Notes under the pieces: model-generated | The model's input: only the letters and a program-made list of their open reading frames with translations | The model's database searches: none | What the model was told of the DNA's origin: nothing | Assembly (NCBI GenBank): GCA_905250025.1 | Contig: CAJNOJ010000348.1 | Location: 30,225 to 94,224 of the forward strand | Length of the DNA: 64,000 nt | Direction of reading: 5' to 3' | Source of the DNA: Adineta ricciae | Taxonomy: Eukaryota > Rotifera > Eurotatoria > Adinetida > Adinetidae | Shown here: piece by piece, positions 14,372-64,000 of the stretch | Position numbering within the stretch: position 1 is the first letter of the stretch | How the letters are laid out: every line of letters starts with the position of its first letter | Made by a program: the position numbers and the translations under genes

Positions 14372-16534
14372 AAAGACTTCCATTTGTTGGTTTTCTCTTT
14401 GAAATAAAAAAAGGTTTTAACTTACAAATAAAATACATCGTATTCTCTTCTTGTTCTCATCTCATTTTCAGCTTTTGAGGCTGAAACAAGTTCAGTTCTA
14501 CTATTTCAGAGTCTTTGGAGTTCAGCAACACGAGATGAATTTCCATTGCATTGTTTTTCTATTTGAAAAGCAAGTAAATCTTGGTTTATTAGGATAAAAA
14601 TTGTGGTTTCCACTTCAATACTCAAACTGTCGCGACAACTGGTTAGATTTAGTTTTTGTCAGTGATTTTATTCGTTGTTCCAGATGATGCTCATTTTGGT
14701 TTTTCAATCTGATTACAATCGAACTAATTCAATTAATTCCATATATCACAGAAACGAAAAACTATATATGTAAGGAATGGAAAGATGACTAATGGAAGAA
14801 ATGAAAGAAAAGAAAAAGGAAAAGCCTATAACATAGTTAGCGTCATCGAATGATGACGCTAACAACCAACTTATTCAACTATAAGTGACAATAAAAGATA
14901 TACTGTAGGTCACAAATTTGTGAAGAATTTCGGCAACTTTGTTAGATCCGGACTCAACAACAATGAGTTACTTTTTAATATGAGAATCTCATTAAATACT
15001 TATTAGATATCAACGGCTAGTGGTGAGGGATCGACCAGAGAGAGGCCGACAGACGACTAGGCGTTATAATTTCAGAAGATTTCACGAAGCGAAATTGATC
15101 TAAATAAAACATTCTGACAAGTTATCAAACGATCAGATCGTTCAATTGAAATAACCTTTTTGTCTCTTTGGACGAATAGTAGCGTTCTAATACTATCCTT
15201 TCAGTAGAGGGCTTAGCGGCTACTAGGCCCCATCACTTGTCTTTAGCTATTTGATTATCAGAGTAGAAAAAACATAAAATCTTTCGGAATATTCTTCATG
15301 TTTGAAAATACACGACTTCTTTTTCTTTGATTCAATTCGAACCAGTGATTGAATACTTAGTATAATGTTTAAGTACAATCGTACTATGTACTAGTACTGG
15401 AGCGCATTTATACTTGGTGCGTGCTAAAATCATCTGTCTCATCATATTTAGCGAAGAAAGCAGGCTTGATTACATGAATAGGCGAATCTTTATCCATTCT
15501 ATTTGTATTTGTTTCTTTTACACATGTATGAAGGATAGTTATGCATAAGCCCATTAAAATACTTAATATGGAAAAAAACTCAATGGTTTCCTTTAGTGAA
15601 ATGCGAAATTTTAATAATCTCAATGAGACGTAACTGATAAATAATAGCTAGATAAGAACTTCTCATTAAGGCATCACCGTAATTACTTTCGATATTTATG
15701 AATACAAAGAATTTTTCGACATCGTTGAAACTCTGTAGCACAGGTCTTATGATGTTTAAGTAAAATGATTAAATATCCAGATTTCGTTGATGTTAGCATC
15801 ATTGGATATTACTTCATGACGCTACCTTCTACATAGCTGTTTTCTTGTATTTCTTTTTCTCTTTCTTTCCTGTCGTTTTAGTTTTCGTTTGATTATTATG
15901 TCCGTTCTCATGATGATCCCTGTGATTGCATTTCTTGTTTGTTTTCTTCTTTTTCTCTTTTTTTCTCAGATCATCTTCGATCTGTATATATGTTGTGGTT
16001 TTTCTATTTTCGACCAGTCTTTTGTTATCGTTTTCTTTAGTGTTTTATTCGATTTCATCCAATAAAACACCCTTATCATCTCATCCACATCCATTCTCTT
16101 AATCTCTCATCACATCCCCCGATACAAGAGACTCACAGTTGATCTTGTAGACTTCACTGAAGTATGAAGTTTTGAAATGCCTTTAGGCAGAATTAGCTTC
16201 AAAGGCAATTATTGCATTATTAACAAGTACTACGTACAAAGTACACTACAGTACCAGTACCCAGCACTTTTTATTTAAGTACAATCGTACTCAATACAAC
16301 TACACAGTACAATATGAAAAAGAGCAGTACGTTCAACTTCCAGTACGAAATAAATTTGTTAATTGCATAATGTTTGTCCAGTCACGGTTTAGATAGAGAG
16401 TATAAGGGCAAGCGTGTGAATAAATTCCAATCCACGCGCTGGCCGTCTAACTAATAAAGAACAATATGTAGTCAACAGTTAATGTAAAAAGAATTTGTTT
16501 TATTTATATGTACAGCAATCATTTTCAACACTAA
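14366..16534. other. Intergenic with hairpin and GTAC-rich repeats
   Basis: A perfect 12-base stem with a 4-base loop lies at 14836-14863. The word TTTAAGTACAATCGTACT occurs twice in the same orientation (15368-15385 and 16274-16291), each inside a cluster of GTAC words, probably remnants of one repeat family. 15015-15063 is the inverted partner of 9014-9062. A minus-strand frame at 15408-15623 contains one possible membrane helix (FFSILSILMGLCITILHTC) but has no start or splice proof. Confidence 0.4.
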
Positions 16535-46300: not shown

Positions 46301-46578
46301 TTTTCCAAAAAAGCATTTTATTCCTACAGCTTTGACCTGCGTCACCATCATTCTCTCCTGATGTTCATCTCTTCCACCACGCTTCGACTAGGACATCTAT
46401 TCAATTTTTATACATACATTTAGATGGTTCGACGAGTGAGNTCATTCATAAGGCTAATATACAAGGCATTTCGGTATGGAACAAAATAATTATTTATTCA
46501 AACACAGATCTCTACCAAATACCGAAGTATTCGACTTATTGATCATATATGATAATATAAGCGCAAGATCAAAAGACG
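46301..46578. other. Spacer with assembly N
   Basis: Unremarkable sequence; one N at 46441. Confidence 0.4.
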
Positions 46579-46813
46579 TATAAGCGGTATTGTGGTATTG
46601 CGGTATAAGCGGTATTGTGGTATAAGCGGTATAAGCGGTATTGCGGTATAGGTTGTATTGTGGTATTGCGGTATAAGCGGTATTGTGGTATAAGCGGTAT
46701 AAGCAGTATTGCGGTATTGCGGTATTGCGGTATTCTGGTATTCTGGTATTGCGGTATAAGCGTTATTCTGGTATTCTGGTATTGCGGTATAAGCGTTATT
46801 CTGGTATTGCGGT
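46579..46813. repeat. Minisatellite of GCGGTATT / GCGGTATAA units
   Basis: About 26 units of 8-9 bases alternate GCGGTATT, GTGGTATT, GCGGTATAA and, toward the right, TCTGGTATT. The Tyr/Pro/Ile/Asn-rich frames on either strand are artefacts of the repeat. A short array of the same unit in reverse orientation lies at 59525-59592. Confidence 0.85.
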
Positions 46814-48466
46814 GTTTTTCGTCCAGTAAACATCGAAAGACTGCCATATTTTGCAGCAGGTCTATAGGAATAGTGAAAATACCTAGCGCTATAATTCAGT
46901 ATGCACTGACGATATTTTTGCGAAAAACTCAAAAGCAATTCGTATCAATTCCCTTTTTTAGTACACATAGTTCTTATGATGTAGCTTTGATCGTGAGGAA
47001 CCATCACAGTTGAGAAGAAATGTGTTGCTTCTGAATTCAGATCATAAAAGGCACCTGCAGTGTTAGTTTAATTTATATATATTGAGCAAATATGTTAAGT
47101 CGGGAGTAATGTATGTTAGCGAACAGGTATCTGTATTGTAGTCAAGTTTTGTTTAGTCGAAGTTCCATTAATACCAGAAATGTCTTACATCGATCATCAA
47201 CTAACGTGGCAAAGAGATATTTTCCATCGTAGTTCACGAATAAAATCTGAAAGCCAAACGGATTTTCTTAGATATATGTACATTACATAGCAATAATTAG
47301 TGTGGCAGAATAATTTCTGCTGCTCGAACGCACAAAAGGAATGAGTAATTTATATCAGCAAAGCAGATAGATAGACAAATCGTGTCCAATGCAAGATTGT
47401 CCTAAATGGCAAACAGTGCGTTTATCAGTTTCTTTCCCGCAAAATGACTTCTTCGGCCAGAAAAATAGATGATTCAGTATATTAGAACAGCAAGCATTTT
47501 GATAGTGATTGCCAGAAACCAACCTATCATGCCTAAGAAAAGGGAGCAGAATTTTTTTAGAAAAAAACGAAAACCGGATTTGAGTTCCTAGACCTTGATT
47601 GCCTGTTGGTCAAGGTTTTCAGAAAACTATCGTTCGTATGCATAATCATCGTAGAAGGAATAAACATACGCACACACGAACACACGATCACACATCAATG
47701 CGTTTTTTTTTCGTAATGTCAGATCCACGCATAACCCTCCTTTCAGTAGATAGAACAACGTTTCGACTTAAGCAGCGATTCCATTATGTCAGCATTCAGA
47801 AAAAAATGAATGGCTCCATATTTTCGCCATTAAATTTGCCGTCCATGAAACCTGTTCCAATCAATGCAGAATTCAATTCTGCATCAAATGGGCTAGTTTT
47901 GAACGAGGAGAAAACGTTCTGAAGAGAGAAACTCTCTCTTGAATCCATATCGAATGAATACGGGTATGAGTAGCACAGAAATGAAGAGCGCCTAAATTTA
48001 TTCGACAATAATTTTTCCGTGCATGAACCTATAGTCCATTCAATGTACAATACAAATCTACATCGATTGTAACAGGTCTCGTGCACCAGAAAACGATTCA
48101 TACGTGGAAGGTAATTCGTGGAACTTTAGTGAATTGATAGGTGGTGCTAACTTCTCATCGATATTTCATATTTCCGTGCTAGGAAAATTATTTTCAAAGT
48201 TGTTCAAACTGTTTCGCAATGATTGAAAATCAAAATTGGTATTCTAATTCGAACTTAAAAACTTTTTCTAATTGGTCTTTGTATAAACAAAGCCGTATTC
48301 TTATTTGTTGTTATTCGTGTTCATTGATTCTGTATTTCTTGACTTTGTTCGTTCTGCCTAACTAAATAGGCCGTCTCTTTTTTAAATCCAGCACCTGATG
48401 AAAACAAAAGATGAAATGATATCATTCTTGTCGCCGAACAAAACGTTCTTTGTGCGACTGTATTCC
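46814..48466. other. Intergenic with small palindromes
   Basis: A 19-base palindrome (47865-47883, TGCAGAATTCAATTCTGCA) and an 8-base stem of GA/TC (47922-47940) lie 40 bases apart. Open frames at 47599-47922 and 47796-48101 on opposite strands lack motifs. No gene supported. Confidence 0.4.
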
Positions 48467-48474
48467 TATAAAAG
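48467..48474 (+). promoter_or_regulatory. TATA box for the DUF3987-like gene
   Basis: TATAAAAG lies 118 bases before the ATG at 48592, in AT-rich non-coding DNA. Position and sequence fit a core promoter, leaving about 90 bases of leader. Confidence 0.4.
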
Positions 48475-48591
48475 CCGATGTAATCGACTAGCTTATCTTA
48501 TTTCTCTCATTTCGAAAAAGAATATTTCCATCATTCCACATTTGTTATACTGTTACTTCTAGATCATTATCTCTTGCAATACTAACTTTTT

Positions 48592-51500
48592 ATGGCAAAT
48601 AATCGTTCATTCAATTATTCTATTCCGGCTGATTTCTCAGCACTTCTTCATTCCAACTTCAAACAATTAAATTCTCTTCCATATTTTGATATTCATTTCT
48701 TGAATGAAGATAAGGACTGGTATTTATTATCGTTTTTACGTGAACAACAACGCAATGGACATTCATACGAAGTAACACTTGCGGCTTTAAATTCTCTTGT
48801 TGGTACATTAGCCGAGAACACTTATTTTCGTGGTCCTGTTAATAATAATGTTGGTTTTCTTAATCAAAACCATCATATTATTGGAGAAAGTGGTAAATAT
48901 CATTTTAATATAAACAAATTGAAACAGGGATTTAGCTCAGTCTGAAGAATTTTTCGAAAAGATTTGCACAAGAAAGATGTTAACAATCTAATAGTTTTTG
49001 CTCTAACGTGTCTGCGCTTCATCAAAGTCATTCTAATCTTTATGGCGATTTCAAGATTCAGCTTAGAGAAAAGGACACCATTCTATGCTAACTTTGAATT
49101 TTATTCTATTTTTAAACCTTATTGTTTTATTCTAGCTTCAAATAAAAGTGCAATCTGTCAAGAGATCTCATTCGCGTTGCAAACTGTCAATGAAATGTTT
49201 CCTGGTCGATATTCAAATTCAATGGAGGATCTAGACAGTGATCACAATACGAACAAAACAAAGCACAAGTCGATTGCAACGGGATATTCTATGGTTGTCT
49301 CAAACGCTACTGAAGTTGCCTTGTTGAATAATTTAACGAAAGTTAACACCATACTATTACATTCTGATGGTGATGTTGCATTAAACAAACTTGGCTATTA
49401 CGATCAAGGAAAGAACGAAACATCAGCTGGTGTCAGTCTGTTTTGTGACGCATCTGATGGGCTCTTCAAAGGGTTCATTAGAGGTACAGGTGTCTCTCAA
49501 GTGAAAATAAATCGTCCAGTGGCATTATTGAATATGTTTGTCGCCAGTACTGGAACAAAAATGGCTCATATGTTGCAACGATTTCATGAAACAAAAGGAC
49601 AAGATGGTGTATTCGGACGAGTATTTTTTACCTGGTGTCCAAGTCTTGTCGAATTACCACCAAGCAAAACAACAAGCTTTACAAATATTGCATCTTTTCC
49701 ACATTTTCCTGTTAGTGCAGCAACGTTTTTTATCAATGCATTCGAGTTACGTCATTCAACAAATAAATCTGATTATGTCAGAAAAACTTCTCAAGGTAAC
49801 CGCTTTGGAAAGTCTTTTTTGCGTGAAAATAGGAAAATATCAAATGAAAAATATTTCTTGATGATAAATTTACATTCGTACATAGGTCTTCAAGAAGAAG
49901 AGCGTTTGATGCAAGAGCGAGTCAAACAAAATGTTACAACACCAGCGACATATTCAATTGATCTAGACGAAGATGACATTCATCTTGAAGAAACCTCTGA
50001 TGCATTTGACAAAAGCAACGAGATATCGTCTTTCAAATTGATGCAAACACTTGTCAACGACTGGTGGAAAGGTTCGCATTTTGCCGAACATCATATAAAA
50101 CCTATTCGTCGCAAAGTGATTTACATGTTATCGAAATGTATATGGTCTATGAAGATTATTCGTATTCTTTTCCGATTGATGGGCGATAATTTAAACACAA
50201 TTGATCAAAAACAAGGTGATCGAATAACATCGACTTCTACACCAATTGATCCACGATTTCAATGTTCAATTGAAAAGTCGATCGATGATTATCTGAAACG
50301 TAACTGTCAACAAAAATACATCATGTGGTCAAATGAAAATGATATTTCAGTTGGATATCATTTGTATTTACGAAAGATGTCAGTTGTCGAAACACTTCTT
50401 ACACTTAAACCATTACCTGATGCAATTGCTGAACGTATTGGGAAGAAAACAACCGAAAAGTAAATGATTTTTATACAATGATTGGGAATTTTATATATTT
50501 TAACATGTTTCTTCTTCAGATCTCCGGAAGAAGTTAAACTGGACAAAGCTATGTGCAAAGTAATGAACTTTTCAGTCGTCTTTTTTCCTCGTCAATATCT
50601 TACGAACAATACGAAAGGGGAAGGATCCGGTCAATTCTCCCATTCGTCTGATTTAAAACCTGATCAAGTTCTTACCCCTTTGGTTGAAAGTGGCTTGGTC
50701 ATTGGTGGAAACTTTATTAAACATGCACGAACGAGAAGTGACGAGTTAAAATTTCCGTCGTTTCGCAAACAGTTGCCTTCTGTTATTCAAAACAATTCAA
50801 TAATTAAACGAGCCTTTGACGTAAGCAGAGTTTGTTCTATGTTTAAGTGTACGTCCATCTTCTACCTGAATTGATACATGATACTATAAAGGGCAGGACA
50901 CACGATAGGAAAAGAATCATTTGTTTAAGTTTAGATTCCGATGAGAAGTTATATAAATGTAGCATAAGTTATTTGGATAGTACACGTTTCGAACGATCTT
51001 CTTTATTTTCGTTCATCTTGCACATAAATTCATAAATCAGATGAAGTATTTGAATCTTTTAACTATATTACGACAAGGAAACGTTGTCAATAAATTCCTT
51101 CTTGTAATCAAATACGATGTGTGCTATTTTTCCTCTAGGACTTGGGTTTGAACATGGCAACTTACCAAACAACATTTGAACATCAACGTTTGCCACTTGG
51201 TATGGAATTCACAGAAGAAGCGATTGAATTCATGCGAAATAACGATGAATTTGTGCAGTATTATCATAATTATTATATCGAAGATCGTCATTTCAAAACG
51301 TTTCGAGAAATGGTGCAACAACGAATTCATCATGGTGAAATCATCCAAAAAGAAAGTTCGTAATGTTTTTCGTCAACGCAAAGTTCTAATCATTAAGTTA
51401 TTTGTATTTTCTAAATATCTTAGATAAAGTTTATTCAAATGATCCTGTCCTTATCAGCAGCTATCGATCAGAACTTTCCCGTCAAAGCAACACGTCTCAA

Positions 51501-54500
51501 GCAAATGTTTCTTTTTCTGTCGATACTGTGACAATAGAAAAGAGTATTGAAACTAAGTCAAGCAATGGAAGTACGTTTTTAATTAACATTATTTCCATTT
51601 CGAAAACTTTTCATATGGCTTTTTCATATAAGCACTCTACCACACTTGAGAATTATTTCACATTTCTTTATATTCAGCACATTTGTTGGAAAGATTAATA
51701 ATTCGTTAAAAAAATGAGCATATAAAATGAGGGGAACGTACATATGCACCCTATGAAACAAAATGACACTGTCCCATGATCGTAGTCAATCTGTAATTAA
51801 TTAAATTTGTTTTTTTCTTCGTCTGTATGAAAAACTGCTAGATCAGAATAGAACTTCTTTATGATACAAGTCATCACAAATCCGTACGGTTTGTTTTTCC
51901 TATAGATGATGAAGTATTAGCAATTGATTCAGAAGCTATGGAAGTGAATAATCAACGAGATCATGCCATTTTCAACAAGACGATCGAAGTCGAAAGCTCT
52001 TCTACTGAATCAATGTTAACATCAGCTGGCAATTTACTTTCAGAAGTACGATTATTAACAGCACATGTGAATTCGGACTGTTCTTTTGACAACAAGATTA
52101 AAGATTCAGTACGAACAGGTTAGAACAAAAATCATTTTTATCTTAGAAAAGCATGATATTTCAGTTGGAGAAAGGTGTGCAATGGTTGTATTTTTATCAA
52201 CCATCTTTATATATCTCGCGATTCGTTTTCATTATAGCGATACAAAATGATACTGCTGTTGAGATTTTTCGAGTCTCGACATAGCATGGTGATAGAAATA
52301 CAGTTGAGATACAGCAGGACAAATAATATAATTTTGTTTGTTTTTATCTCCAAGCAACGTTTATTTATCGATACGTTGATTGATCATGTACCATGTTTGT
52401 AATCTCTCATAGCTCAATGAGACGAATGGGTGATTGTAATGAATGAAAAAAGTTGTTTTTCTCGAGTTATGTTGACATTTGTCGTGATTGGAAAGAAAAG
52501 CGATGATCGTGCGCTTTAAAAAAAGGCATTTTCATTACGAGATGAATTAGGAAACGGTTATTCCAAGGAGATCAGTATATATATATATATATTATAGCAC
52601 TTTTGTTTTGTACAGACTTTGTCCGAATAGTTATTTTAGTTTCATATTTTGTTTTACAGATGATGTTGAACCTGACATCATTGTGGCAACAAATTCAACA
52701 ATTACGATTGGTAAGCAATCAATTTCTGGTTATTTTTTATCCCATAATCTTTCTATTCTCTTGCTTTTTATATAATTTCAGTTCGAGAATCGGATGTAAA
52801 TCTTGTCGATTTCGAAGAAACAGAAAATCATGCATGTAAGTATTAGAATTAATTAGCCGCTCATAATTGTTTTCACGGTATCTTCTTGTATGTGGACTAA
52901 AGAACAATATGTTCTGTCGTTCTATTTCACAATGGATCGAATGAGCATAGTTCGTACAAATATAAAGAATTTTGCATTTAAAGAGCAGTTGAAAGGAGAG
53001 AATGCTTCGTTTCGAATGATTTGTCAGCTATGCTTTTATTTATCTTCGCATTCTAGCTTCTGAAAATGATCGATCGGCAAACAATCACCAGTCTAGATGT
53101 ATTTCAACGCAATTTGGTCCAGTTGTGACAAAAAAACAAAATAGAGAGAATGAAAATCTCAGTGAACCATCACTCAATAGTAATTCGTTTACATTTTTTG
53201 TTTTTGATGCAATGACGACCATTTGTTGTTTAACTATGTAAACAAACGAGACTTGACTGTAACAATCATATACAGAACCGATGTTGAGCTGAGAATATTA
53301 CTGATTTTTTTTATAGTTTCCCGGAGACACAGTTGAAAAAATAACACTCAGTGAATACTATGCAAATAAATGGTCGTTATGTCATAGCCAGAACGACACA
53401 ATTGCATTTCTGATTGTTTCTTTCTATTTTTACTTTTCTTTCTCTTTGATAGTGTCACGATCGTTTGTTGGTGAAATAATGTTATCACAAAGTATTCCAC
53501 TTAATGATGCAACAAATGAAATGGAACCACGGTATGTAGGTATGTGAACAAGAAGTCTTTATTTTTTTCTGTTTTTTGTCACTCTCAAACACATTTCGAA
53601 CTAAAATAATAAGAAGCTTGCTGACAAAAATTCTAATACTATCAGTGTATGAAATAACAACCGATCTCTACTGTTTGTTTTTGAATAGAAGAGAGTTTGT
53701 TCAAACATAACAAAATTATTTAGTACCTTACTTTCATTCATTTCGAAGTCAAAGTGCTTTTGAGAAGTCATAAGGAACTTCACGTATCAGACGCATGTCC
53801 TTGTGTTCATTCGCCACGGACGCCTTTGAGTCATCATTATAATAGACTAGTTATATTAAACATGAATTTTCTTAGATGCAGATGAATCAGGGTCTGAAAA
53901 AAGTAAAAAACGTGGTCGTCCAATTTCGACAAATACGACGTCACAAAAATGGTCATCCGAAGGTAAGAAATTCGGTTTCATTTGTCGGCGTATACTTGTT
54001 CAGGAGCAGAGGAGACATATTTGTTCGTATTCGATCTAAAGTCGCATCGTATTCTTTTAAACCTAAACACACTGTTCTCATCCAATTATATTTCTCAGGA
54101 AAGGATCATTCAAATCGATCTTTTTCATAAATTCGCCACACATGTGAAAGAGCTTTGAATTGATATTTGCTTAGCGGCTAGATAACAATATCTGCCATAT
54201 GTGCCACTAAGTGTAGAATCGAAAATACGGGAGGATAATTCAGGGATCTTGACAGCTTCAAAGCACAACAGTCTTTGCTTTGTATGTAAACATGTTTCTT
54301 GAGGAAAACGTTTCCTGAATATATAAATATTTTTCATTTTCCATCATCACATAGAACTATTTCATAAGCTCATAACCAAGATTATGCGATACATACAAAT
54401 CTTTTACGAATTTAGAGGTGAATAATATGATTATCGATCCAAAATCCTTTGTTGTTTGGAAATCAATTATTATAAAACGTCAATTCATTCTTGGTACTGC

Positions 54501-55123
54501 AACGGATTTATTCAAAATGATACCGTCGAGATTATTCGATGAAACATCAAGATTAAAACTGATTGACTTTTTGCTTATGAAGAAATTGCTGGTGAGAGGT
54601 GATTGGTTTTGTGATTCAAAAGGCACATCAGTTGCTGGTTATATCAAAGGAAGTCCTCCAAATCCTGAAGTATCGATGAGTTTAGCTGAATTTGGACTGG
54701 ATATCGAGGAATACAAATTTTCATTAAATCCAAATGGTCATGGAAAACGAATGATTGGTGGCAAATTGAGAAATCAATCATTTTCATTTAGTACTTCATT
54801 AAATGATCGAATTCGAAATGACGAATGGTTTAAAGATAATCTGGAAATTGACGAAAAATTTATGTATGTGACAACAGCATTATCACAAACAACGTCGAAT
54901 CTCCGTGCGTGTTTCATTTTATCGAACGCATCTTTTACTCATTTATTTTTGCTTCTCTTTCACAGAGGTTGATCAATTTCAACAACAGCAAAAAGATAAA
55001 GCTTATCGAGCTTTGACAGCCAAACGAAAGAAGGTGGATGAACTACAAAAAGAAACAACACAAATATATGGCACGGATATACCGGCGAAACGTAAACGTA
55101 AACCAAAGATTCGAGAAGATTAA
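48592..55123 (+). CDS. Gene A: DUF3987-like protein with disordered AT-hook tail, about 13 exons
   Basis: First block 48592-48945 starts MANNRSFNYSIPADFSALLH. The frame is disturbed between 48.92 and 49.13 kb (TGA in the opening frame; coding-like QSEEFFEKICTRK in another), so one or two introns or breaks lie there. Exons then read to 50459, 50520-50820, 51139-51355, 51424-51570, 51906-52118, 52660-52710, 52782-52835, 53057-53179, 53453-53539, 53876-53962, 54416-54904 and 54966-55123. The core (49.1-50.4 kb) has TILLHSDGDVALNKLGYYDQ, ALLNMFVASTGTKMAHMLQR and GQDGVFGRVFFTWCP, resembling the sensor-like D-E/R part of DUF3987 proteins, helicase/primase-type ATPases. The tail is acidic and serine-rich, has an AT-hook (KKRGRPIS) and ends in a basic KRKRKPK signal, suggesting a nuclear DNA-binding protein. 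The family call is tentative. Confidence 0.55.
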
Positions 55124-55530
55124 GCTTCATTTTGCTTCCTTATGGTGTTACAAATACGCATATTTCAAGTCCATGATTATCTCTTGATTACTTATGCACA
55201 TATTATTATTTACTTACCATTTCGATTCGTAGTAATTGGTATTCAATATTGTGTCTTAATTGTTTTATATTTGTTTTATTCGAGTCATATATCAGTGACC
55301 TTTATTTGCCATGTTCAATTAAAACGTGAACTACCTGTTCTTATTCTTTTTGATGTAAGATTCTTTTGCTTCTTTATTTTTCACCAACTATTTGTTTCTC
55401 CTTTTGAGAATTATTCTCGTCAACGTTTTCGATATCTTTCTTTCCCGCTGCGCTGTTTGTACAAATTCGCTTATGAATACGTCTTCTGCCAAAGATATTG
55501 TTTTTCATTGTCATGTTTCATGCGTCATTT
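55124..55530. other. 3' flank of gene A
   Basis: Open for about 140 codons from 55142, but the frame is hydrophobic, lacks motifs and ends inside the MITE, so it is not called a gene. Confidence 0.4.
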
Positions 55531-55648
55531 CCAAGGGGGAAACAGCGGATTAGGAGTTTAAATAATCATCTAATCACTCATAATCAATACTAATCACATA
55601 TAATCAATATAATCAACATTAATCAATAATCCGCTGTTTCCCCCTTGG
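55531..55648. mobile_element. 118-base MITE with perfect 22-base TIRs and 6-base target duplication
   Basis: Bases 55531-55552 (starting CCAAGGGGGAAACAGCGG) are the exact reverse complement of 55627-55648. TCATTT precedes (55525-55530) and follows (55649-55654) as a target-site duplication. The centre is a tandem of TAATCA-type words. Perfect ends imply recent movement. It has no coding capacity, and the parent transposase is not in the window. Confidence 0.88.
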
Positions 55649-56266
55649 TCATTTCTCCTTCCAATTCTTAGCTCTCTTTTTGTAAGATAGTACACTTTTT
55701 ACTGGCTAACCATGTATTTTGTTAGCTTGGTATTTTTACGCATTATTCTTTTTCACCGAAAGTGATTTTTCTTTATTCAACACTTGTGTGAAGAACACTG
55801 GTTGATTTATGTCACCATTATCTATATGAATAAAAGTAAATTCATACTCGAACAATTGAAATTTACCATTTTGTCGAAGAATCACTTCAAACGTTCATGG
55901 TGCGTAGCACTAACAGAGAGTATATAACAAATGAAATGAGAAAAGTGAAATGAATTGTATAAAATGTCTAATGGTTGTTTTATTATCATTAAAGCATTTG
56001 ATTCGTTTTAGAAAATATTTTGTTAGAGTCATGTTTTTTCATTTAAACATTGATGAATCCAATGGATCGTTCAAAACTATGCTTATTATCCAAATCAGAC
56101 TATTTCTAAAATTCAGTACTATGCGAAACAAGAAATAGTTTTTCATACCATTCGTGTAACTAACACAGATGAATTCTTTTATTCTAGAAAAGAATTATAG
56201 TGGCAAAGGTTTTTTATGTATCAATCTGTTAATATGTATCATCTATACAAGATTTTATTTCTTCAG
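55649..56266. other. Upstream region of gene B
   Basis: Non-coding. The exon of gene B follows an acceptor (TTTCTTCAG) at 56258-56266, so a 5' non-coding exon may lie here. Confidence 0.4.
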
Positions 56267-58638
56267 ATGTTATCGATGAATGTCATATTTGAGCGTCTTC
56301 AATTAGCATTTCCAAACGAAGCAAAACGTTCTTTCAAAGCAGCGCTGATCATTATTAATGCTGCACATTTTATACCAGCAAGTTATATTCGTCCACTACC
56401 TCCACCATGTACAAGTGAAGAAAGATTGGATTTCATATCTTTTTTTTTGAACAAGGAAACAGGTATTGAATATACATGTAATGAAGTTCTTATTGCTCAC
56501 AACGTTTTGATGGGTAATCATAATACACGAGTCGAACTTACTTTCGATTGTAATATCGAAAAAATGAATCAGTATCTGGATGAATATAAAAATATTCAAC
56601 CTCAGTCTGGATTTGCAAAAAGTTTTACTCTTATTTCACTTCTTCCATATCGAACGACTTGTGCTTTGTGTTATGAACAGTTGAAGACTATTTTCCATGG
56701 TGCTGGTAACATTATCTATTGCACGAAAATCCAACCTTGTCTTTTATACAAGGCTGATTGTCACCGATGTCATCGATCATATCGAGTATCTTCCATTTAT
56801 TCAATTGATCGAAAAGAAACACTTATAACATCCGATTCACAAAAAGCTGATTATATACATTATTCAGGATCACTTGTCTTTGCAAAGGAATTTCTTATCG
56901 CATTCTCATCTCAACTGATTGACAACTACGTTACTTTCGAAGGTTTTGCGTCTGCAACTGCGAAGATGTTCAGAAGACTTTGTCCAGACATCGTCGATAT
57001 TGTTACAATAGATACTTTAGCTCGTAATTTGCAATCTGTTTGGCTATATTATGAATTAACTAATTTCATTTTTATGACAAGTAAATTGAAAGAAATTTCA
57101 TATCCATATGCAATAGCTGAAAGTAGAACAAAAGTGAAATATAATCAATCATCACGCGCAATATTTATCGAACGGAATCTGAACTGGATCTATCATATAT
57201 TTACTGTTTTCTGGTCCAATCATGAAGATATATTCGGAAGTTGCAAATGTGGTTATTGTTCACGCGTGATCATACTCGATGGCCATCAGAAACCGTAAGT
57301 TTTGATTGCATATAAAGATTAATTACTTTAAGTTTGAAATTTCTATTTGTATTTAAAAAATCCGTATCTAATTCATCGGTCATTTATTGGAATAATTTAA
57401 ATGATATTCACATTTTGAAAGCAAATCATTTTTATAATATAAAATTAAGCTACGTTGAAGGTTGTAAAGAATAATTATTACTTTATTTTATTTATTTAAG
57501 GAGAAGATTGGTGTGCAAATATGACAATGTTACAAGTTTGATTAACATTGATGAACTGGGTCCTTTAAACAAAGGTTGCCCTTACATGCCGCGACGGCGA
57601 CAATCAGATAAGAGAGAATCAAATGGTAAGTGAAGATCCATTGAAAATCGAACTCCTATTATCAGTTGAACAAAAGGAGTGATTAGAATAATTCGACTTG
57701 AATTGATCATTTGGGAAGCTGACTGAAAGAATAAACATTTCCATAAGATAGCATTTCATGAATAAGAACGCTTAATTTAATGTTCAATTATAGATGGTGG
57801 ATATTATTACTGTGATCATCACCGAATGAAATACACAGAAGAGCAATCTATGAATAGTAAATTCTCCGACGAAGAACTTGGGAATTATTTAAGTTATCTT
57901 AAGAAACTTGATCAAGAAGAGTCACAATGCAATGTGGGTCGAAACGACATTGAAGAACGTTTCGAAACGAAAAAACGTTCAATGGGATTTATCGCATCAT
58001 TTCTTAATTGTGGAATTATTATTGGATTTTCCGATAGTGTTAATCATGAAGGTCCAAGAAAAATAACTGATCATCTACTAACTATGTTGAAACTGGGTGC
58101 AAAAATTCCATCATTGCTTGTGTACGATGCCGCTTGTCAGCTGTACAAATTCTGGCAATATCGATTTAACGGTGAATACTTGCAGAAAACAAAATACACA
58201 CAACAACTGATGGAAATGAAACTGGTTACTGATCGATTTCACAATACCGTTCATAAAGGAAAGCTATGTAAAACTATCTTCAATCCTGATTCTGAAGAGA
58301 ACAAGATTGATTTCGTAGGAATCAATACCAGTTTAGCTGAACAAACCTTTTCATATTTAACCAATTTCAAACTTGCTTTACGAAGTTTCGCGTATCCAAC
58401 ATCAGCACTGTTAACGATTTTATTGTTTCATCTGAAAAATTGTGACAAATTAAACGAAGATCCTGCTCAAATTGGTCTAATCATTGGAACTAATCTTGAA
58501 AATAAGATTGAAGATCAATCAATGCACCAAACTTATTGCGTATTCGAAACATTGCTACTTGAAGAATCAAATAAGGATGATAATCCAGATGATGACGACT
58601 ATGTTGACCTTAGCGATCATGATGATAACAATGATTAA
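56267..58638 (+). CDS. Gene B: cysteine-cluster (CxC5-like) protein with KDZ-type transposase-like domain
   Basis: Exons 56267-57294, 57501-57625 and 57794-58638 join in one frame to 665 residues, starting MLSMNVIFERLQLAFPNE. The N-half has zinc-binding pairs CALCYEQL, then CLLYKADCHRCHRSY, then CKCGYCSRVIIL, as in the CxC5 cysteine cluster known beside KDZ transposases. A second cluster follows (YYYCDHHRM, CNVG). The C-half reads SLLVYDAACQLYKFW, DRFHNTVHKGKLCKTIF and NTSLAEQTFSYLTNFKL, matching the D-x2-CQ, H-x4-H and E-bearing strands of the KDZ RNase-H-like fold. The expected first catalytic Asp (MDGNF-type) is not seen; FLNCGIIIGFSD stands there, so it may be inactive or degenerate. It ends in an acidic tail (DDDYVDLSDHDDNND). 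Likely nuclear. Confidence 0.65.
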
Positions 58639-59758
58639 TGAAACCATATGTCATATCGCAACTTGTTCTTCAAACTATTATGCTTTCTCTGATTTTCTTT
58701 TTTGGTTTTTTTTAAAGCTTCAAAAAAGAGAAAACTATTAGAAAATATATTGGGAAAACGTTAATATCTTATGGTTTTTTTAGTACGGTCTCTTAGGGAG
58801 CTCATTGCACATGAGATGAAGATGGTTTTTTTTCTTTGTTGGACAGATAAAGAATCCAATACAGTATATTTTCTTATCTTTCGAACTGCACATCATAATC
58901 ATTGTCAACAAAAAACTGTGCACAATTAGGAAACAACCATCATCACTTGCACAATGGTTACAGTGTGATGACATAACTGATTCAAGCGTTAACATAAATC
59001 GCCACGTCTGTGCGACTATTTCAGTTTCACTTTCTTATCACATACTCTACAAAACTCCCAAATTCATATGGTTTCCTTAGAAAGAAATACGACTTGATTT
59101 CTACTATAAAAACGTGGCATCACCATTAAATTCACAATTATTAAAAGAAAACGCAAGCACCCTTCGTATCTCTCACGATACTCGCTATATACAAATAAAA
59201 CACTTCTCTTCTGCGTCCCAATGGCTCAAAAAGAAAAAGCCGATGGCAGAATATTCTAAATCTCGAAACACATCCTTCATACTCATCAATCTCGAGTCTA
59301 AACTTTTTCATACTCTCAGTGTCATCAATCAATATCAGTAAAAAAAGTATCCTTATCTATGCCTTTCTCACCATTAAAGGATCTAATAATCACTACATAC
59401 GCTACTGCTACATACAAAAATTTTAAATTCGATTTCCAAGACCAATTCAATCACCACACTTACATACCTCTAACACTTCTATACCTCTGGAATCTTCCAT
59501 ATGACTAACACGACTTACGTCGCCGATACGGCTTATACCGCATATACCGCAATGCCGCATATACCGCTAATACCGCAATACCGTTTATACCACTAACCCT
59601 ATCATGCAATTGGAACTGCACTGTATAGTTGAACAAACAGAGTCTTTCTATATTTCGATTTTGTCAAAAATTAGGAATTAATTTAGAAAATTAATTTGCC
59701 ACAAAATCATATTCCCCAGCATATGAGCAGGTCTCTATCCGACTTTGTTTCCTTATAG
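58639..59758. other. Spacer between genes B and C, with inverted minisatellite
   Basis: A frame at 59114-59341 lacks ATG and motifs. Gene C's first visible exon begins after an acceptor at 59758 in phase 1, so an upstream exon of gene C should exist, but I could not identify it here. Confidence 0.4.
59525..59592. repeat. Short minisatellite, reverse of the 46.6 kb array
   Basis: About eight units of ATACCGC(AA/TT/T) reading as the complement of the GCGGTAT units at 46579-46813. Confidence 0.75.
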
Positions 59759-62609
59759 GTGCGGTGCACCTGAAGATCAATCAAAGCCAATCAAAATAAG
59801 GTTTCGAGAACATATTCGTTATTTGTTATCATATGATGACCGACGTTTTGAAACGAATCATAGTTTCACTTTTGTAGTCTTCAACATATTACAAAGACGT
59901 GATGCATGTCTTCATGCTCAACTTATATCAACGAAGCCTTATCTTCAATCTTCTACTCAGGAAATTCAACCATTAAGCAGTTCTGATATTGAAACAGCTC
60001 TGAAGAATATTCCTACAAGAACATATGACACGCATTCTAACAAGGGATTAGGCAAACTACTAAATCATATCAAAACAATCGGTGGTCGCGTCATGGGCTC
60101 AGCACATTCACGCACAGCATTACGCACAGATATCCGTGCATTAATTTTCAATCAAGGACTACCAAGTATTTTCTTAGCTCTCAATCCGGCTGATATTCAT
60201 AGTCCCGTCGCATTATATTTTGCCGGCGTCAAACTTGATCTAGACAATGTTCAAGCAGAACAACTTATGGATACATACAGACGTGCCGAAATCATAGCTT
60301 CTCATCCAGTTGCGACAGCTAAATTCTTTCATACGTTGATTTCCAATATCTTAGATACAATGATTATTGGCGGTGTACTCGGTCGTGTAAAAGCTTACTT
60401 TGGCACTGTTGAAAGTCAAGGTCGCGGTTCGCTTCATTTACATCTCTTGATTTGGCTCGATATCAAGATCAAACCAACTGATATGAAGGAAAAGGTGCAG
60501 GATTCAAATTTTCGTGAAAGACTTATCGCATACTTGGAAGATATTATCAAAGAAGACCTAGATGACTTCAAAGACATAAAAATTCAAGACCCATCCAGTA
60601 ATAACACTCCTTCCTTCTTTTATTATCAGAATCATTCTTCCTTGCTTTCTTCTAGCTCCGTCAACATCCGATCATTCACCACAACTAGCAACAGATACTA
60701 TTTATACAGCTTTACGCGCTATGGAGTTTACAAATTCTGAACGAAACGCAGATCATTCTAATCCTTCTACCGTTTGGTCAACGCCAGTGAAAGGACAATC
60801 ATCTCCATCGATTCCATATGCATCGCCCGTGATGTTTGGTAGATCTCCATCAACCTCGTACCGGTCGTTGTTAATACCGTATGCATCTCCTCCCTACCAC
60901 GAACTATTACAAACGCCAACATCGGACCGATCAATACTTGGTACGATTACAGTGAAACCTCCCTCAATGAACACCTCTGTATAATGAACACCTCTTGTTT
61001 GAACACGTTCCTCGGTCCCCCCGATTGATTTTTGCTGTGATTGCACCTCTACATAATGAACACCTCCAACCTCTGAACATTGAACGCTTTTTTTTGGTCC
61101 CTTTGACAAAGAAAACCTCTAAGAAATGAACAGATTTGCGGTAAAATACATTTTTTAGTAGAAAAAAGAGGGTAAAAATATTTTGAAACTGTTTTGTCCA
61201 GTCTTTTGACGATTTTTTTTATACATAGAAAGTGGCCTTGCGCAGAAAACAAAATAGGCGATGAGAATATTTGGAACATTTTAATTAATTTTCTCTCGAT
61301 CCTAATTAGCGTAGGAACTAAATCGACTGTAGAATCAAAGTAGAAGATGGGAAAGCAGATTGACACTTCTGAAGGTGTCAACAAGTTATTAGCAGTAGTT
61401 TGATAACCTCATCTTTCTATTAGTAATGATCAATCACAATACTATGATTTTACCTCTCGTCTAAGTTTAAAACTCGTTCATGTTCCCATCGAACTGAACA
61501 AGGTTAATGAGACTATTCAAAACAATACATTTCACAGCAATTCACTGGATTTTTTTTATCAAGAGCCCTACTTGATTGACTTCGGGTTTACTAGATGGAA
61601 TATACTACAAAAAACTCATAGATACCATTCAGTCGTGTTCACTGTGTATTCTACATTCGTATCCTATCAATGGATTGAAAACCTCTATATAATGAACAAC
61701 TCCCATAATGAACGCTTTTCGTGCGGTCCCGTAGGTGTTCATCTTACGGAGGTTTCACTGTATTTAATCACTTTTTGATAAAACAATAAATATGCATCAT
61801 TATTCTAGGGATAAATGTTGAGGGTACTCAACCAAAACTATTTCCAGCCTGCTTACCTACTCCAAATCCATCGTCCTCTAATTTCAAATTGAGATTTCGT
61901 GCTGATGTAGTACTACTAGTTGAAGCACGGAACACTCACATTCACACTGATACATGTTACAAATACTGTGATCTTATCTATAACGGCAAACGAGTTTGTC
62001 GAATGCGTTTGCTACGCAAATTAGTGCCAAAGTCGATAATTGATCCTGAAGCTGGGGATATACGTATGCGACGATCGCATCCAATGATCAATAATTATAA
62101 TGAATATATCATATCAGCATGTCGTTCTAACATGGACATCAAGTTTATTTGGACAGGCAGCGATGCCAAACCGTTTGTCTATTATATTACAGATTATTTG
62201 ACAAAATCCAGTCTTTCTTTTCACGACACATTTTCTCTTATTCAGAAAAATGTTGCATCATTCGGAGACATATCAAATCAAGTGGATAATACAGACAGTG
62301 CTATCGAAAGATCACGTAAATTCGTTTTACGTTGCTATAATACACTTGCGTCTCAACAAGAGTTATCTGGAGCGCAAGTTGCTTCGTATCTTATGAATGG
62401 GGACGATCATTATACGACACACAAATTCCAAGGACTTTATTTAATTCAAACTGAACGATACTTACAGACAGAATTGAATGAATTACGTGTCAAACGAAAC
62501 TTAGAAAGAGATTCATATGGTAACAGTATGACTGTTTCGTCATTTGTCTCTCTTATAGTTGCATTTTTTTTTCATATGAGAATTCTTCTTCTTTTATCGT
62601 CAGATGCCA

Positions 62610-62642
<33 letters not shown>

Positions 62643-64000
62643 GGGGGGAGAGGGGGAGAAATAAACAAAAAAGGAAGAGAGAAAAAAATCAATCAAGACA
62701 TAATATACATGCTGCGATGAGCGGGAGAATGGAAGAAAGAGAAGAAACGTTTGTTATATAAACAATTAATGAGAGTGAGAGGAAGGAAAAGAATAACATA
62801 CGGTCATCATATAAGAAGACATAATAAGATATACTTAACATGGTATCCAGCTGTCCTAAAGTATTGTTGCTACATCAAATATATCACGTAGATAAGTGAC
62901 ACGGAATGAACGGAGCTCTTCCAGTATAATTCTTCTCTTATTGATGGGAACGTGAAGGAATATGATCATAAAAATCAGATCGACAAAAGCTATCTTATCT
63001 TTTTTCACACATAGATGCCATGGATTATGATGAACGCAATGATAATGTGCCTAACGATGAAAATGATAATGAAGAAAATTTTCAAATTCAACCTGTCGAA
63101 AATGAAAATGGAAACGATTTCGTGCTAGTTAACGGAAGGATTGATTATCAGTATCGATCAGGAACTCTCGATAATGTGTGCTTATACGATTTTGATAGCG
63201 CATTTTATAAAAAAAAAGATCAACACGTCTGATTTAAAATATATAGCTGATAGCTCTATAGGAAGAGAAGAGCAGGATAATCGCAGAGGTCGACCACCTA
63301 ATCAACGATTTCCTTTTCAAAAACAACATCCTCAAGCAACGACCCACGTAACGACGAAACGTATTGAACATCGTGTACCAATCCTCTATGGTCCTCAAAT
63401 ACCTCGACGGGATCGTGAAGACGCCCAAGAACGATATTGTCGAGCTATTCTTACACTTTTTGTGCCTTGGCAAACTGTATCTGATCTTTGCGATGTCAAC
63501 CAGAAATGGGAAGATGCACTTAGCTCTCGTCAGCATCATATATCTGCGCACTCGCAGAATATCATCGATAATATTCAACTTTTACATGAGTGTAAGAAAG
63601 ACAGAGATGAACACTTAGTGAAAGTGATTACAGAAGCTCAAGTTGAGAACGACACAATCGAGCCCGAACTGTTTCCAAAAAATCAAAGTTCATACGATGA
63701 ATACGATGATACAAGTGACAGCGAAGATTTACTTGAATTGCTCGGTAATTTAAACGATTCTACTACAGTTGCAATGAACAGCATGAAGAAATCAACAGAA
63801 AATGTGTATATAGAGGAAACTATAGAAACTGTAGAACAAATGGGACGATTCTCTCATACACACAGTATGTAATCTTGATTCGTAACGACTCATCTTTAAA
63901 AACAACGCTATCCTTTCTTGTAGCACCGAATCAAAGTTTGATAAATGCATCATTTGCTGATAATTATCAACAGATGACATCATTTGTTCCTTCAACATCT
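59759..64000 (+). CDS. Gene C: Helitron replication initiator (HUH Rep) protein; helicase part beyond window
   Basis: Exons 59759-60597, 60656-60940, 61809-62519, 63015-63864 and 63924 to the edge, all joined by phase-1 introns. The N-part is a Helitron_like_N domain (REHIRYLLSYDDRRFETNHS). The HUH motif is GTVESQGRGSLHLHLLIWLD, with the metal-binding His pair. Exon 3 follows with the CR-MRL-RKLV region, RSHPMINNYNEYI, RSNMDIKFIW and the tyrosine motif KPFVYYITDYLTK, whose tyrosines nick and join DNA in rolling-circle transposition. The next exon has RRDREDAQERYCRAILTLF and an acidic linker. The PIF1-type helicase expected next lies outside. One frame shift sits at a nine-A run near 63210. 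The 5' end is missing an upstream exon. Confidence 0.85.
60950..61760. mobile_element. 811-base TA-flanked pogo/Tc1-like non-autonomous transposon
   Basis: The left end starts CAGTGAAACCTCC and the right end is its complement; about 27 bases match with few mismatches. TA lies on both sides (60948-60949 and 61761-61762). ATGAACACCTC words recur just inside both ends. No transposase frame is present. CAGTG ends with a TA duplication fit the pogo/Tigger group. It sits nine bases inside an intron of gene C; without it that intron is 55 bases. Confidence 0.88.
62609..62661. repeat. Uninterrupted 53-base purine tract in a gene C intron
   Basis: (GA)n followed by G-rich purines, on the + strand. 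It lies in the intron 62520-63014 and may form triplex DNA; no function can be assigned. Confidence 0.7.

Follow-up and report, generated by a model that had tools for sequence, protein, structure and literature searches.

Eukaryotic cut-and-paste transposons are usually thought to require a transposase alone, sometimes together with a DNA-binding partner. The bacterial elements Mu, Tn7 and IS21 are built on pairs of a transposase and an ATPase, and transposition of Mu and Tn7 includes an ATP-assisted step. Among eukaryotic elements, 8-bp duplications are given for Zisupton and for one Dileera in the accessible portion of PMC12730594. DUF3987 domains are described in the accessible part of PMC5862659 as predicted helicase ATPases of mobile elements, and the papers found to name them (including PMC5862659, PMC8004638 and PMC6893835) are concerned, by their titles, with bacteria, phages, satellites and primases. 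Here, a 64,000-nucleotide stretch of the rotifer Adineta ricciae (assembly GCA_905250025.1, contig CAJNOJ010000348.1, positions 30,225 to 94,224; G000:C348:30225-94224), hereafter the window, whose last base is the contig end, was analysed with respect to two neighbouring genes, A and B. The A-B pair is quite probably a cut-and-paste DNA transposon of the KDZ (Kyakuja-Dileera-Zisupton) type inserted in a resident Helitron Rep gene. This reading is based on the observed linkage of A and B, their ends and arrays, the 8-bp flanks of short elements and the Rep junction; the roles of the proteins are inferred.

As an earlier note on this DNA had claimed, three co-oriented multi-exon genes are present on the + strand, gene A at 48592-55123, gene B at 56267-58638 and gene C in the frame 59727-60740. 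The A-B element can be traced over 13.3 kb of the same strand (46442..59725), with an exact right end and a left end that is lost at a one-N joint at 46441. Searches were performed against the assembly (1033 contigs, 130.5 Mb), and the genome-wide match counts for A, B and Rep are lower bounds. The main exon of A matches four loci, namely the window (C348), C494 (64%) and C639 (57%; both values for the first part), together with C249 (35% identity). The best matches of the first exon of B lie at the same four loci, with 64, 63 and 35% identity at the three outside the window (18 further rows are more distant or fragments), and a close relative of B is found downstream of A in the same orientation at 4/4 A loci. 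Rep gave at least 41 matches on at least 28 contigs, 6 of which match only at ≤34% identity; 26 of the 28 contigs carry no match to A, A and Rep occur together only on C348 and C494, in the latter case with Rep and A-B on opposite strands, and no Rep match was reported on the A-B contigs C639 and C249. Rep stands outside the pair formed by A and B. The single unit that the earlier note had drawn around all three genes holds for A and B, which keep their order at every A locus, but not for Rep, which is regularly found without A and whose exon is interrupted by the end of A-B.

Gene C was correctly taken for a Helitron HUH Rep (Helitron_like_N, E=1.1e-34). The Rep gene occupies 59726..64000 (+ strand), outside the A-B element, with its 5′ part missing and truncated on the right where the contig stops. 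Similarity between the window and the nearest Rep copies sets in abruptly at 59722-59726; these copies read ...CTATTAGCAGGTCTC or nearly so, while the window reads ...CCCCAGCATATG followed across the junction by AGCAGGTCTC. In a comparison of the window with six Rep loci, the upstream regions of the latter (~1.5 kb or less) showed no similarity adjoining the junction, the sole upstream match being a 130-bp repeat at 15791-15895. The right terminal inverted repeat of A-B (59693..59725, - strand, inward reading CATATGCTGGGGAATATGATTTTGTGGCAAATT) directly abuts the central part of a Rep exon, which other Rep copies have uninterrupted, and A-B was therefore inserted into Rep. The bases AGCAGGTC at 59726..59733, within the Rep exon, are presumably the right copy of an 8-bp target duplication, the length of which is taken from short elements described below and the left copy of which is absent from the assembly. 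Another end of the same terminal repeat family directly adjoins Rep homology at C494:5902, at the equivalent of window position 62209, so that two such ends are found in Rep copies, which may reflect chance or a target preference.

The 33 bases before the junction recur with 3-6 changes at C639 and C494 (in each case left of A-B), at a second C494 site and at C597; two further matches with 10 changes each look like chance. For the 26-base core of this end, 47 genome sites were found within 3 mismatches and none for the reversed pattern, a variant of the end fronted by GAGTTCA was found at 29 sites (control 0) and the strict CATATG form at 5 sites (control 0). Pooling of the core and the GAGTTCA variant resulted in 66 distinct ends genome-wide. 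Inward-facing ends less than 3 kb apart are present on 10 contigs (11 pairs, since one C172 end pairs twice) and outward-facing ones on none, with ~0.03 facing pairs expected. All 10 short two-ended elements have the GAGTTCA pattern at one end and lack it at the other. The flanking 8-mers were compared for three of the 10, taking the boundary to lie seven bases outward of TGGGG, and agree at 8/8 (C157), 7/8 (C111) and 6/8 (C998) positions. A DNA search with the C998 element resulted in 25 matches, among them one spanning all of it at C111 and one spanning most of it, at 83%, at C473, and the short elements therefore form a family. Beside A-B, terminal inverted repeats are found at three loci, at the right in the window and at the left at C639 and C494. 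No second end with fewer than 8 mismatches in 26 was found inside these three A-B copies, and the flanking ends therefore do not come from short elements lying next to A-B. The end at C597 was set aside as evidence for the KDZ-like gene there, as a one-N joint separates the two.

Just inside the ends, arrays of 8-9-bp units are located in inverted orientation. In the window, the left array (46578..46813, + strand) has the units GCGGTATT(G), GCGGTATTG and GCGGTATAA with periods of 8, 17 and 26 according to Tandem Repeats Finder (TRF), and the right array (59526..59594, - strand) has the inverse 9-bp units ATACCGCAT with TRF periods of 9, 17 and 26. At C639 the unit is GGTGGTCTT left of A-B and its inverse at the right; C494 has a left array of CACAATGAC and C249 a right array of GACCCCCAC. 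Arrays are thus present at 6/8 of the A-B flanks examined at the four loci, and none was found at the C494 right flank (sequence down to 11372) or at the C249 left flank (from 97556). A further 181,645 bases of sequence, partly overlapping, contained no arrays of at least 40 bp with periods 8, 9 or 18 and two of period 27, both at one locus; this background filter covered periods 8, 9, 18 and 27 and leaves uncounted the periods 17 and 26, which are also TRF periods of the window arrays. The unit differs among the A-B copies, and the short elements follow them: C111 and C998 have TGTGGTCAA-like units as C494 does, and C157 has GCGGTATTA-like units as the window does (by eye, n=3).

Gene B encodes 665 amino acids in a frame that is intact across three exons (56267-57294, 57501-57625 and 57794-58638, + strand), with CxxC pairs starting at 56660, 56759 and 57248. 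Its relatives in the same genome exceed the Pfam cut-off for CxC5 at C955, C570, C403, C74, C226 and C45, and at C732 with neighbouring frames (15 rows), and that for KDZ (PF18758) at C570, C121, C955, C488, C975 and C470 (8 rows), while 0/14 control genomes were positive for either. The B copies of C639 and C249 match CxC5 under the cut-off (24.3 and 22.2 bits), and the window copy is not among the CxC5 rows. The last exon of B matches the KDZ loci C570 (E=7.1e-17) and C955 (E=1.3e-12), both of which pass the KDZ cut-off. Via these relatives, B belongs with the KDZ transposases that bear a CxC5 cluster, and it is to this extent that its earlier labelling as CxC5/KDZ-like stands. In an alignment of eleven relatives, the D and the histidines of DxFHxxxH (in the window DRFHNTVH from 58231) and the E of AEQ (INTSLAEQ, 58321-58344) are invariant, and the D of YDxAC (YDAAC, 58123-58137) is retained almost throughout, this segment being absent from one row. 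These conserved positions resemble the spaced acidic residues that a DDE-type transposase would have. Comparison of B with solved structures gave seven weak matches, all to MsrA and with E 0.098 or worse, and single-sequence structure models of two B exons (mean predicted local distance difference test scores of 35 and 33) were too poor for a structure search. At C494:13596-13883 and C494:9380-9841, a one-N joint within the copy of B has an identical 102-bp stretch on either side, and another, partial copy of B lies ~4 kb away, which is either an assembly artefact or a local duplication.

Gene A begins at 48592, and its first five exons (48592-48892, 49136-49795, 49886-50459, 50520-50820 and 51139-51359, + strand) form an open frame of 685 amino acids with standard GT/AG splice sites. 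Small exons of uncertain placement follow in 51360..54414, with an AT-hook-like KRGRP at ~53908-53922, and the last two exons (54415-54904 and 54967-55123) encode a C-terminal domain that is conserved at C639, C494 and C249. The five exon ends that were placed have phases 1, 1, 2, 0 and 2, in which the phase-1 bias formerly noted for this gene is not seen. A P-loop-like GESASNKS spans the first intron, and SNKS is invariant in 4/4 A copies. The Pfam DUF3987 model matches A of the window with E=0.0077 (15.9 bits) and A of C494 with E=0.0037 (17 bits), in both cases under the cut-off of 27 bits, and no match was found by the same scan in the copies of C639 and C249. This weak match agrees with DUF3987 proteins in the position and register of the P-loop; the acidic motif is SDEA in 3/4 DUF3987 references and apparently SDGD in A (by eye). 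The references were four proteins that themselves pass the Pfam model, a fifth (L086, cut at its start) being excluded from the alignment. Therefore, of the suggestion that A is DUF3987-like with an AT-hook, the motif and a weak resemblance remain: A is predicted to be a weakly DUF3987-like, P-loop-like protein and is not a DUF3987 (PF13148) member by the curated cut-off. Relatives of its main exon were found neither in phage records nor in viral contigs, its profile had no match among solved structures, and NCBIfam gave nothing relevant. A hidden Markov model of the last domain of A was run on 18 test loci (563 frames) and on 1397 control frames; C597, upstream of its B-like gene, was matched with E=9.5e-6, clearly beyond the best control (E=0.016), and the matches at C226 (0.0037) and C504 (0.0058 and 0.0096) are close to that control and less sure.

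The surroundings of other DUF3987 genes in the genome are the better argument for the DUF3987 link of A, compared with its weak sequence match. DUF3987 exceeds the cut-off at C570, C488 and C955, in each case at a start-to-start distance of 1.5-3.2 kb from a match to KDZ or CxC5 and in divergent orientation, and a weaker match (23.7 bits) lies 3.5 kb upstream of the CxC5 gene of C226 on the same strand. DUF3987 is therefore near KDZ or CxC5 at 4/8 loci, with a chance probability of ~8e-10. The eight loci were obtained from 14 rows by merging rows of the same locus and omitting C391 (E=7e-4, under the cut-off and with internal stops) and C923 (E=0.12); with C391 the count is 4/9. In the control search for DUF3987, 1/14 genomes was positive, and a phage DUF3987 protein used as query against the genome contigs found nothing. 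The contigs C538, C140, C298 and C424 have DUF3987 over the cut-off and no KDZ or CxC5 match on the same contig.

Another explanation overlaps with ours and differs only on the role of A: that A is a passenger in a KDZ transposon and does not contribute to transposition, comparable to the TET/JBP genes that several transposon lineages of fungi carry. Such passengers are described in the accessible text of PMC12730594 for fungal KDZ, hAT, IS3EU, EnSpm and Helitron elements, and the short elements reveal ends and arrays only and not which protein mobilises them. However, the recurrence of A or a DUF3987 gene beside KDZ or CxC5 in several locus groups, with varied gene orientation, goes beyond what would be expected of a casual passenger, and we consider this explanation rather unlikely. 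Any given role of A is held with less confidence than the assignment of A-B to the KDZ-type transposons.

Several observations weigh against this assignment. None of the A-B copies at the four loci combines two ends with matching duplications: the window has lost its left end and C639 its right end (C639:11340) at one-N joints, the 8-mers flanking the two C494 ends differ, and C249 has no end within 7 mismatches, except for one inside the B gene. The reading of C494 as a single two-ended element was dropped on account of its flanking 8-mers. The boundary of the target duplication was picked after inspection of the sequences; it is supported by the 29 sites with GAGTTCA. The A-B copies have diverged strongly from one another (57-64% and 35% identity at the protein level), and recent movement of A-B is therefore not demonstrated. 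Additionally, B of the window alone has no Pfam match at E≤10, the DUF3987 match of A is under the cut-off in two copies and absent in two, and a profile comparison of A with the four DUF3987 proteins of phages and plasmids by hhalign and HMMER gave nothing above reversed and shuffled controls, both profiles being shallow.

The small number of A loci, their strong divergence and the lack of a copy with two ends and matching duplications would also suit a domesticated or relic pair of host genes, next to which repeats and arrays came to lie by unrelated insertions. This is improbable in view of the ends or arrays that stand beside A-B at 4/4 loci (arrays at 6/8 flanks, terminal inverted repeats at three loci), the right end of the window that cuts Rep exactly, and the finding of no second end inside A-B. 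One large Helitron with its own Rep and with A and B as cargo, as the earlier note had envisaged from three adjacent genes on one strand, and to which the second A-B-family end within Rep sequence at C494 could be added, is largely refuted and has very little probability left, given that Rep is mostly found without A, that it lies on the opposite strand at C494, and that A-B has inverted arrays and terminal inverted repeats of its own, one of which interrupts the Rep exon.

Smaller features were also recorded. Between A and B, a 118-bp element at 55531-55648 has perfect 22-bp inverted repeats (CCAAGGGGGAAACAGCGGATTA) and is flanked on both sides by TCATTT; it is a small insertion within the A-B unit. 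The Rep gene contains a second insertion of ~810 bp at 60950-61760, whose inverted ends read CAGTGAAACCTCC/GGAGGTTTCACTG and which has TA on either side; we take it to be Tc1/mariner-like. Single-base N runs resembling assembly joints are present at many loci; in the window, N runs of the same appearance are located at 2501, 21244, 29262, 36934 and 46441 (four single, one of 89).

If A-B is a KDZ-type transposon, B would be the transposase, which on the grounds of its family and of the duplications at the short elements may bind and cut the terminal repeats and insert the element with an 8-bp stagger. The ATPase-like A with its AT-hook-like motif could aid in recognising the ends, opening the strands or choosing the target, perhaps using ATP. 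The inverted 8-9-bp arrays may serve as multimeric binding sites for A or B, and the short non-autonomous elements that share array units would be moved in trans. A broader proposal is put forward tentatively, as a possibility to which we give less than even weight, namely that A-B represents an undescribed, widespread class of eukaryotic cut-and-paste elements in which a KDZ/CxC5 transposase is obligately accompanied by a DUF3987-type ATPase, fast-changing 9-bp arrays at both ends co-diverge with the two proteins as their recognition code, and each subfamily mobilises no short elements but its own; the CxC5/CxC6 inserts of fungi, with their nine-letter repeats, would possibly belong to the same class. 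Should a KDZ transposase recurrently be combined with a replication-type ATPase, this would point to an ATP-assisted step resembling that of Mu or Tn7. Moreover, it would give a place to CxC5 proteins without a known element and provide a natural setting where a transposase seems to change in step with its minisatellite-like recognition sites.

In the literature searched, which included few subscription papers, no description of a KDZ/Zisupton transposase with a DUF3987 or ATPase-like partner was found. With Mu, Tn7 and IS21, A-B shares the two-gene plan of a transposase and an ATPase-like partner; the protein families are different, as far as known. The DUF3987 proteins of phages, plasmids and bacteria have, by the weak Pfam match, their P-loop in the same position and register as A, whereas the motifs GESASNKS and apparent SDGD of A differ from theirs. 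Zisupton/KDZ elements resemble A-B in the relatedness to KDZ-type transposases, the multi-exon gene, the terminal inverted repeats and, as given in the accessible portion of PMC12730594, the 8-bp duplications, which are found here in the short elements; in contrast to them, A-B has a second, ATPase-like gene and inverted 8-9-bp arrays inside its ends. According to the accessible text of PMC7641404, the intact KDZ elements of Pleurotus are preceded by a CxC2 cluster, where the A-B system has CxC5. The same text describes CxC5/CxC6 inserts of Pleurotus ostreatus with no KDZ element nearby, which its authors link to Copia and for which that portion mentions neither an ATPase nor an inverted repeat. 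These inserts are nevertheless similar to A-B in a CxC5/CxC6 protein of 660-739 amino acids, a mobile-looking insert of 6.8 kb and a repeat cluster of the nine-letter signature BC5NWY (PMC7641404), and, likened by their description and as a lead, they may be a fungal relative of A-B.

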